DNA from: a virus
Virus record (IMG/VR): IMGVR_UViG_3300042197_002506
Span: 1 to 34,338 of that record
DNA: 34,338 nt
Direction: 5' to 3' (one strand)
Part shown: positions 13,802 through 23,401 of the stretch, piece after piece
Layout: each line of letters begins with the position of its first letter
Position numbering within the stretch: the first letter of the stretch is position 1
The notes under the pieces: model-generated
Databases searched by the model: none
The model's input: only the letters and a program-made list of their open reading frames with translations
Told to the model about the DNA's origin: nothing
Program-made: the position numbers and the translations under genes

Positions 13802-14431
13802 TCAATGATAAAAAATATGCTGACCAATTTTCTTAATCATCCTTTTGCTTTCAGCCCAACTAGGATTAACATATACGGCATGAAAGTGTTTGGCACTACC
13901 TATTATACCGTATTCTTTTTTAGAAATCAAAATGTTTTCAGCAATTTTAACTGAGTCTTGCCACGCGTCACTGCTACGACGAACTTTATTTTTCCCTTCA
14001 CAGACCCAAGAGAACTGACACGTGCCTTTGATCTTTTGGTGAACAACACCGCAAACAGTTCTAGGATATTGTTTGCTCTTAACGCGATTCATGGTTACTT
14101 CGGCAACAGCAATCTTGCCAGCACGTGGTTCACCGCCTGCTTCGAAGTAGATGTTGCGAGCCAAGCATTCAACCTCTTTCATGACTGCTTGTTTCTTCTC
14201 ATAGGAAAGATTTAGAAACTCTACTTTGCGATTGAGAGTTTGAATTTCAGAATGTAGAAGCACGTTAGCATTTTGTTGTGCTTCAAGTTTGTTTTGCATA
14301 CGATCTACCATACTGAATGGTATGTATAGTGTGAAAAATATCAACGCAAAAAGCCCACCCCACATACAGAACAAACTATGGTTGCGATCAAAATATTTTT
14401 CTACATGATGTAATATATCTACTGCATTCAT
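13802..14431 (-). CDS. SleB-type cell wall hydrolase with N-terminal membrane anchor
   Basis: Residues 20-41 are a hydrophobic span (FCMWGGLFALIFFTLYIPFS), followed by a coiled-coil linker (about 45-85) with many Asn/Gln/Glu. Residues 88-209 form a hydrolase_2 (SleB) domain: ECLARNIYFEAGGEP with the catalytic Glu about residue 97, AVAEVTMNRVKSKQYP, CQFSWVCEGK, and AKHFHAVYVNPSW. The family cleaves the glycan strand of peptidoglycan. A signal-anchor plus hydrolase is the plan of a lysis enzyme that is held at the inner membrane. It lies just downstream of the tmRNA terminator and has a GGAG ribosome site. Confidence 0.9.
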   Translation of the reverse strand: MNAVDILHHVEKYFDRNHSLFCMWGGLFALIFFTLYIPFSMVDRMQNKLEAQQNANVLLHSEIQTLNRKVEFLNLSYEKKQAVMKEVECLARNIYFEAGGEPRAGKIAVAEVTMNRVKSKQYPRTVCGVVHQKIKGTCQFSWVCEGKNKVRRSSDAWQDSVKIAENILISKKEYGIIGSAKHFHAVYVNPSWAESKRMIKKIGQHIFYH

Positions 14432-14456: not shown

Positions 14457-14488
14457 AAAGAAAAGGGTGGTGGTTCGCACCACCACCC
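14457..14488 (-). terminator. Terminator of the tmRNA gene
   Basis: On the minus strand a perfect 10-bp stem (GGGTGGTGGT/ACCACCACCC) with loop GCGA is followed by TTTTCTTT. It lies 51 bases after the tag stop codon and ends the permuted tmRNA transcript, ahead of the hydrolase gene. Confidence 0.9.
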
Positions 14489-14731
14489 CAGACTCGTTCT
14501 GTTACCAAGTGAGTCAAACTCTGTTACTCTTTACTACAATTAAGCAGCGAGAGGCAGATCGTAAACATCATCGTTTGCGTTTACTTTTTTTGCGCTGATT
14601 AAGTCAGTCGCCTCACTGGTAGCCTTTGGGTTATTACTTGCCCCGTCGAAGCCATTACTTCCCCGTCGATGGTGGAGAAGGTGGGAGTCGAACCCACGTC
14701 CGAAACACCTTTAGTCAAAGGTTTACTACCA
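14489..14731 (-). ncRNA. ssrA: tmRNA, circularly permuted (two-piece) gene
   Basis: Read on the minus strand, the acceptor half comes first: TTTCGGACGTGGGTTCGACT, then CCCACCTTCTCCACCA, with CCA encoded at 14670-14672. After a 5-base linker the coding half starts at 14664 with GGGGAAGTAATGGCTTCGAC and runs through the tag to the terminator. The halves pair as one tRNA-like domain: GGGGAAG (14658-14664) with CTTCTCC (14674-14680) gives 7 bp including G3-U70, the alanine identity pair. P2 also pairs: CAAAGG and CTACCA (14617-14628) with CCTTTG and TGGTAG (14716-14731). The T-arm is GTGGG/CCCAC. No second acceptor follows the tag, so the gene is permuted. Piece ends are approximate; processing by host RNases is inferred. 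Confidence 0.95.
14540..14578 (-). other. tmRNA tag reading frame ANDDVYDLPLAA
   Basis: The resume codon GCA (14576-14578) follows an A-rich stretch ending GTAAAC, as in bacterial tmRNAs. The frame reads ANDDVYDLPLAA and stops at TAA. The AND start and LAA-type end are those of degradation tags read by ClpXP-like proteases. The adaptor-binding and protease-binding ends are conserved; the middle (DVYDLP) is unfamiliar to me. Confidence 0.93.
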
Positions 14732-14890
14732 TTAATCAACTAGAAATTGTGGTTTGGCTTGTTCGTTCAATGATTTCTGCTGTTGGTCAAGATGAGCCTT
14801 GTATTGCTCATTTGTCATTGAATGGAGACCAACGCAATAGCCTGTTGGACTACGACCACAACCACATTTTACTTGTTTCACGTCAGACAT
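14732..14890 (-). CDS. 52-residue CDGSH-like cysteine protein
   Basis: A short gene with a strong ribosome site (AAAGGAG, 7 bases before ATG at 14890). The product starts MSDVKQVKCGCGRSPTGYCV and then GLHSMTNEQYKAHL; the rest is a charged helix ending in FLVD. Cys9-x-Cys11-x7-Cys19-x3-His23 resembles the CDGSH [2Fe-2S] pattern (C-x-C-x8-C-x3-H), one residue shorter and with VGLH for DGSH, so the cluster could be [2Fe-2S] or zinc. Its stop codon lies directly against the start of the tmRNA acceptor half (P2 strand at 14716-14731), so the two are probably co-transcribed. Function is unknown. Confidence 0.8.
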   Translation of the reverse strand: MSDVKQVKCGCGRSPTGYCVGLHSMTNEQYKAHLDQQQKSLNEQAKPQFLVD

Positions 14891-14927
14891 ATCCTACTCC
14901 TTTTGCAAAGGTAGTAATATTTAGGCG

Positions 14928-23200: not shown

Positions 23201-23276
23201 TGGTAGCGGAGGTTGGATTCGAACCAACGGAAACTGGATTATGAGTCCAGTGACTTGACCACTAGTCTACTCCGCA
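23201..23276 (-). tRNA. tRNA with CAU anticodon (Met or Ile2)
   Basis: Minus strand cloverleaf: acceptor GCGGAG/CTCCGC, D-stem GACT/AGTC, anticodon stem CTGGA/TCCAG with loop CTCATAA (anticodon CAT at 23241-23243), T-arm GTTGG-TTCGAAT-CCAAC, CCA encoded. No initiator features are obvious. Whether it is elongator Met or lysidine-modified Ile cannot be decided here. Confidence 0.93.
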
Positions 23277-23281
23277 GTTTT

Positions 23282-23401
23282 TTATTTAGTCTTTGTTTTC
23301 GGTGATTTACTTTTTCCGAAAATGCGCTCCCAGTTATCATCAAACTGTTTGCGCGGAACACTTAATGGACGTGGCTCACTTCCCTTTCCGCCAGTACTCA
23401 T
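23282..23401 (-). CDS. Small conserved phage protein, 39 aa
   Basis: MSTGGKGSEPRPLSVPRKQF then DDNWERIFGKSKSPKTK. The pattern S-x-GGKGS-x-PRP...F...W-x-x-IFG recurs as a tiny gene in many phages. The ATG overlaps the HNH stop (ATGA). The Lys-rich end runs to six bases from the CAU tRNA. Function unknown. Confidence 0.8.
   Translation of the reverse strand: MSTGGKGSEPRPLSVPRKQFDDNWERIFGKSKSPKTKTK

Follow-up and report, generated by a model that had tools for sequence, protein, structure and literature searches.

The window, as we call the whole stretch of 34,338 nt of viral DNA that was analysed, carries a complete circularly permuted tmRNA gene on its minus strand, at about positions 14462-14731. 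Its identity as a permuted tmRNA is secure. Our main reading, to which we assign a probability of roughly 0.87, is that the features described below point to a working two-piece tmRNA of the betaproteobacterial type that is kept by Kyanoviridae-like T4-type phages. ARAGORN reports a permuted tmRNA (tmRNA*) on the minus strand with the tag ANDDVYDLPLAA*. Furthermore, two Rfam covariance models match far above their cut-offs (47 bits for tmRNA_permuted and 84 bits for beta_tmRNA). RF04321 (tmRNA_permuted) matches at 14540-14730(-) with 146.2 bits (E 4e-29) and over the complete model (1-213), and RF01850 (beta_tmRNA) at 14462-14799(-) with 139.2 bits (E 1e-42), the best match of its clan. A first-pass annotation of the same DNA had proposed a permuted two-piece phage tmRNA at 14489-14731 and named these programs as a check. 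A permuted match was indeed obtained on the minus strand at the expected site. The locus was correctly placed, but its lower end has to be moved: the gene reaches slightly past 14489, as the beta_tmRNA model counts the 3' hairpin (to about 14462) as RNA. The acceptor half lies upstream of the tag-bearing half, as had been described, according to the sequence, ARAGORN and a scan for T-arm motifs. The T-arm motifs of the window are the tmRNA's own and those of three tRNAs, and no linear acceptor half was found downstream of the tag. The claim had been staked on this point and on the match of covariance models. The assignment to the betaproteobacterial type is based on the RF01850 score, with which the phylogenetic trees and the scores of a phage-clade model agree (see below).

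Table 1. Features of the tmRNA locus (positions refer to the window)
Feature	Position	Strand	Basis
CTAAATA, T4 late-promoter-like motif upstream of the transcription unit	14918-14924	-	Motif position in relatives; function inferred
52-aa ORF directly upstream, stop codon abutting the tmRNA	14732-14890	-	Sequence; no Pfam match
Acceptor half: P2 strands, T-arm, acceptor 3' strand, ACCA	14670-14731	-	Sequence, ARAGORN, Rfam, alignment
P2b strand GGTAG, acceptor half (partner 14618-14622)	14726-14730	-	Pairing across relatives
P2a strand TGTTTCG, acceptor half (partner 14639-14645)	14701-14707	-	Pairing across relatives
Intervening segment TCGAC, 5 nt, predicted to be removed	14665-14669	-	Sequence; 4-90 nt in relatives
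Coding half: acceptor 5' strand GGGGAAG, D-analogue, P2 strands, tag frame, 3' pairing elements, final hairpin	14464-14664	-	Sequence, Rfam
P2a strand CGGGGCA, coding half	14639-14645	-	Pairing across relatives
P2b strand CTACC, coding half	14618-14622	-	Pairing across relatives
Tag frame ANDDVYDLPLAA + TAA, resume codon GCA	14540-14578	-	ARAGORN; LAA end across relatives
Terminator-like hairpin (14489-14464), then T-rich tail	14457-14489	-	Hairpin scan; part of beta_tmRNA model
Endolysin (cell wall hydrolase, PF07486), directly downstream	13802-14431	-	Pfam

The acceptor half reads GGTAGTAAACC...GGACGTGGGTTCGACTCCCACCTTCTCCACCA and ends with CTTCTCC-ACCA at 14670, and the coding half opens with GGGGAAGTAATGGCTTCGACGGGGC... 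at 14664 (Table 1). Both helices that the first-pass annotation had placed between the halves can be recognized: the 7-bp acceptor stem with G3-U70 (GGGGAAG with CTTCTCC) is seen in the sequence, and the 12-bp P2 is composed of 5 bp (GGTAG/CTACC) and 7 bp (TGTTTCG/CGGGGCA). The terminator noted after the coding half was likewise detected. We compared these pairings among 43 distinct relatives. The acceptor stem pairs in 301/301 cells, P2a in 300 of 301 and P2b in 214 of 215; four different acceptor stems occur (GGGGAAG, GGGGATG, GGGGGTG and GGGGACG), each with a matching partner. In an alignment of 15 of the 43 relatives, 99.3% of the cells pair, ten pairs are changed on both sides, and G3-U70 is invariant (G-U in 15/15). 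None of 500 shuffles of this alignment reached the observed pairing and covariation, and sliding the partners by 1-3 columns reduced pairing to 44-59%. Since the pairs between the halves are kept and covary, the halves evolve as one molecule across the spacer. Altered T-loops (GGGTGCGA, GGGGTTTCAATACCCC) were also observed, in the phage tmRNAs of loci L115, L136 and L121-L123; stem pairing is kept in them.

The tag frame (GCA AAC GAT GAT GTT TAC GAT CTG CCT CTC GCT GCT TAA) contains an Ala resume codon, a stop codon and an AA end. Among the relatives, 11 different tags were found, all of which start with AN and end with LAA, and the LAA end is kept in 43/43 relatives despite seven codon spellings of the last four residues. 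The phage tags are variable and 12-14 aa long, whereas those of chromosomal betaproteobacterial tmRNAs are mostly ANDERFALAA. Because tag and structure are constrained, the RNA very likely takes part in trans-translation. Searches for SmpB were negative in the window and in 12 further phage records, either related or taken for comparison (62-221 kb, some of which may be fragments), with the controls being detected; SspB was likewise not found in the phages. The RNA should therefore need host SmpB. The RNA could instead act as a decoy or inhibitor of host trans-translation that binds SmpB and tags inefficiently, like the tmRNA of mycobacteriophage DS6A, which has only the tRNA domain. RNAs of this type do inhibit tmRNA (PMC11915505, PMC4131195), and the failure to detect SmpB in the phage would suit a decoy as well. 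But a decoy would not need the full tag frame, Ala resume codon, stop codon and LAA end, all of which are kept despite codon changes, and we regard this explanation as improbable.

For the working tmRNA that we favor, we infer the following course of processing, charging, SmpB use, timing and infection benefit. A single precursor would be transcribed, probably late with the lysis region, and would end at the terminator. Host RNase P would cut before 14664 and exonucleases would trim a few nucleotides after CCA, leaving two RNAs that stay paired through the acceptor stem and P2. Alanine would be attached by host AlaRS via G3-U70, and with host SmpB and EF-Tu the RNA would enter ribosomes stalled on truncated mRNA. 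ANDDVYDLPLAA would then be added and the ribosome released, and the LAA end would direct the tagged product to ClpXP. The phage could benefit by regaining ribosomes and amino acids at a time when many mRNAs are being truncated by RNases of the phage or the host. The role suggested in the first-pass annotation, rescue or tagging in the course of infection, would be in line with such a scheme.

With a spacer of only 5 nt, RNase P would have to cleave within a tight loop. The gene might be intact but its precursor uncut, given the spacer of 4-6 nt, and the RNA might have another role, for example as the structured end of a neighboring mRNA. The hairpin across the 5-nt spacer of the window folds stably, and the terminator ends the gene just before the endolysin, both of which would be compatible with this idea. 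However, chromosomal Rhodocyclaceae tmRNAs with the tag ANDERFALAA have 4-nt spacers, so that of the window is not abnormal, and the tag frame and G3-U70 are conserved. We therefore give an uncut precursor only a small chance, slightly below that of a decoy.

Within the phage clade, the segment has a length of 4-6, 36, 44, 51 or 62-90 nt, compared to 4-42 nt in the chromosomal betaproteobacterial genes sampled. The length differs even among near-identical tmRNAs (L004 has 4 nt, L141 has 76 nt and L157 has 90 nt). The long segments are predicted to fold into branched extensions of the acceptor helix. For one of them, that of L109, ARAGORN run with a relaxed threshold reports a tRNA-Leu, and Rfam gave only a weak partial match to tRNA-Sec (E 0.85). 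No clear second copy of the inserts was found elsewhere in the fetched loci. As a tentative and rather doubtful extension of these observations, the tmRNA of these phages may be a late gene of the lysis region, and the site between its halves may gain and lose short RNA modules that are structured and in one case resemble a tRNA. This would be harmless to the tmRNA because tRNA-processing enzymes would remove the modules anyway. The variable segment offers a natural series for how two-piece tmRNAs get cut. Further variation in segment length was seen in L101, L117, L120, L135 and L136; the segment of L109 lies at 2149-2236 of its locus.

The window represents part of a T4-type phage genome and encodes gp32, gp59, gp33, PhoH, tail tube, baseplate and tail proteins, and the relatives of its gp32 are found in marine Kyanoviridae, including Melnitz and HTVC008M. 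The gene order is PhoH, PDDEXK, several small genes, tmRNA, endolysin, a GMP-reductase-like gene, gp33 and gp59. A search with the endolysin yielded 80 IMG/VR loci, and the tmRNA is located upstream of the endolysin gene in nearly all loci with enough upstream sequence. Where ARAGORN detected none, the tmRNA is cut off by the end of the contig or is separated from the endolysin by a small ORF. Exactly one tmRNA copy was present in each of 12 records searched whole. The layout that was to be looked for in other T4-like phage contigs is thus shared by a large group, and the T4-type setting proposed for the gene holds. The argument from the rarity of phage tmRNAs is weaker than had been stated, since the gene is nearly universal in this phage group and two-piece tmRNAs of T4-like phages had already been published.

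We next consider the ancestry of the gene. In maximum-likelihood trees, the window falls within a phage-only clade with support of 100/99; as the bootstrap had not converged, these values are approximate. Among bacteria, betaproteobacterial permuted tmRNAs branch closest to this clade, with the deeper order being weak. The tmRNA of Melnitz is placed elsewhere, joined to an alpha-like bacterial sequence. A covariance model of the phage clade reached 116 bits in Burkholderiales but no more than 74 bits in the remaining Pseudomonadota sampled, a contrast that rests on how the genome samples were drawn. Among 150 Burkholderiales, RF04321 gave mostly weak cross-matches to standard tmRNAs and five matches above cut-off; one of these five (L210) has the standard form according to ARAGORN. 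As to a direct donor, no bacterial genome matched a strict DNA pattern of the window's acceptor stem, and BLASTN of the tmRNA against isolated phages gave only short tRNA-like matches and no closely similar tmRNA. The suggested origin in a host lineage with two-piece tmRNA agrees with the nearest bacterial branches. However, the phage clade contains no sequence from bacteria, so that the gene seems to be an old one, passed on vertically among the phages, rather than a recent pick-up. A functionless leftover of imprecise prophage excision from the host ssrA integration site is very improbable: ssrA often serves as an integration site, and incomplete copies of it are known from prophages (PMC9004378), but the gene is complete, lies among core genes of a T4-like phage, belongs to a phage-only clade with covariation, is near-universal in the group, and has its tag and pairings intact in relatives. 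Permuted tmRNA genes with unusual tags (e.g. ANADYYDQDEEVILRVA) were also encountered in Stenotrophomonas (L177, L184, L201) and in one Burkholderiales genome (G264; L236), possibly extra copies on mobile elements.

A tmRNA was reported in 402 of 18,146 phage genomes, with 133 unique structures of which 53 are two-piece; 50 of these 53 are marine or aquatic, and two-piece genes occur in T4-like aquatic phages (PMC9004378). In another study, 79 unique phage tmRNAs were tabulated and RF04321 was described (PMC11915505). Two-piece tmRNAs in T4-like phages are therefore already published, and the gene of the window adds to them. Newer are the beta type, the near-universal retention in a phage group, the late-promoter-like motif and a segment of 4 to about 90 nt. 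A literature search, with most subscription papers outside its scope, found no paper on this particular phage group.

The closest comparison is Melnitz (MZ577097; PMC9004378), a Kyanoviridae T4-like phage with a permuted tmRNA in the same PhoH-to-gp33 region. Its gene order is PhoH, PDDEXK nuclease, small ORFs, tmRNA, gp33 and gp59. In both phages the PhoH and PDDEXK genes are upstream and those for the late-transcription coactivator gp33 and for gp59 downstream, and SmpB was found in neither. Unlike Melnitz, the window has the endolysin and the GMP-reductase-like gene between tmRNA and gp33. Moreover, the tmRNA of Melnitz belongs to the alpha type, its intervening segment is 142 nt long and its 3' end carries a glutamine riboswitch, whereas that of the window is beta-type with a 5-nt segment; no glutamine riboswitch was found in the window. 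The occurrence of alpha and beta type in one genome region suggests independent capture or replacement in place, either of which would explain it, and the tmRNA type is perhaps matched to the host. Chromosomal betaproteobacterial two-piece tmRNAs (RF01850; Rhodocyclaceae, Taylorella) share the order of parts and, although they are the nearest branches, lie outside the phage sequences' own clade. The mycobacteriophages Bxz1, Wildcat and DS6A also carry a tmRNA (PMC4131195). However, these are not described as permuted in that paper, and the tmRNA of DS6A is little beyond the tRNA-like part. Retention in nearly every genome examined, together with a constrained tag, is stronger evidence that phages gain from a ribosome-rescue RNA of their own than single occurrences would be.

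The T4 late promoter core is TATAAATA. The similar motif [AC]TAAATA is located just upstream of the tmRNA unit in 37/39 relatives (background 0.034 per 260 nt); these 37 share kinship and so are not 37 independent events, while their upstream genes differ. In relatives without an intervening small ORF, the motif precedes the tmRNA by 13-20 nt; in the others, it directly precedes that ORF. The similarity to the T4 core makes it likely that the unit is transcribed late, together with the lysis region. Only the position upstream of the tmRNA unit is striking: the total count of [AC]TAAATA is not enriched in the window, nor is TATAAATA with one mismatch, and sigma-70-like promoters around the gene are no commoner than in shuffles. 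For Melnitz, early expression was proposed (PMC9004378). A CTAAATA motif was also seen a few bases upstream of the tRNA-Met gene at 23201-23289 (-) of the window.

Two observations concern the neighboring small ORFs. In the 52-aa ORF upstream of the tmRNA, the stretch CGCGRSPTGYCVGLH resembles a CDGSH-type iron-sulphur motif with altered spacing. In L138, L139, L129, L131 and L095, tmRNA and endolysin are separated by a small ORF, behind which the 3' hairpin region of the tmRNA recurs, as if an insertion had taken place by recombination at the tail.
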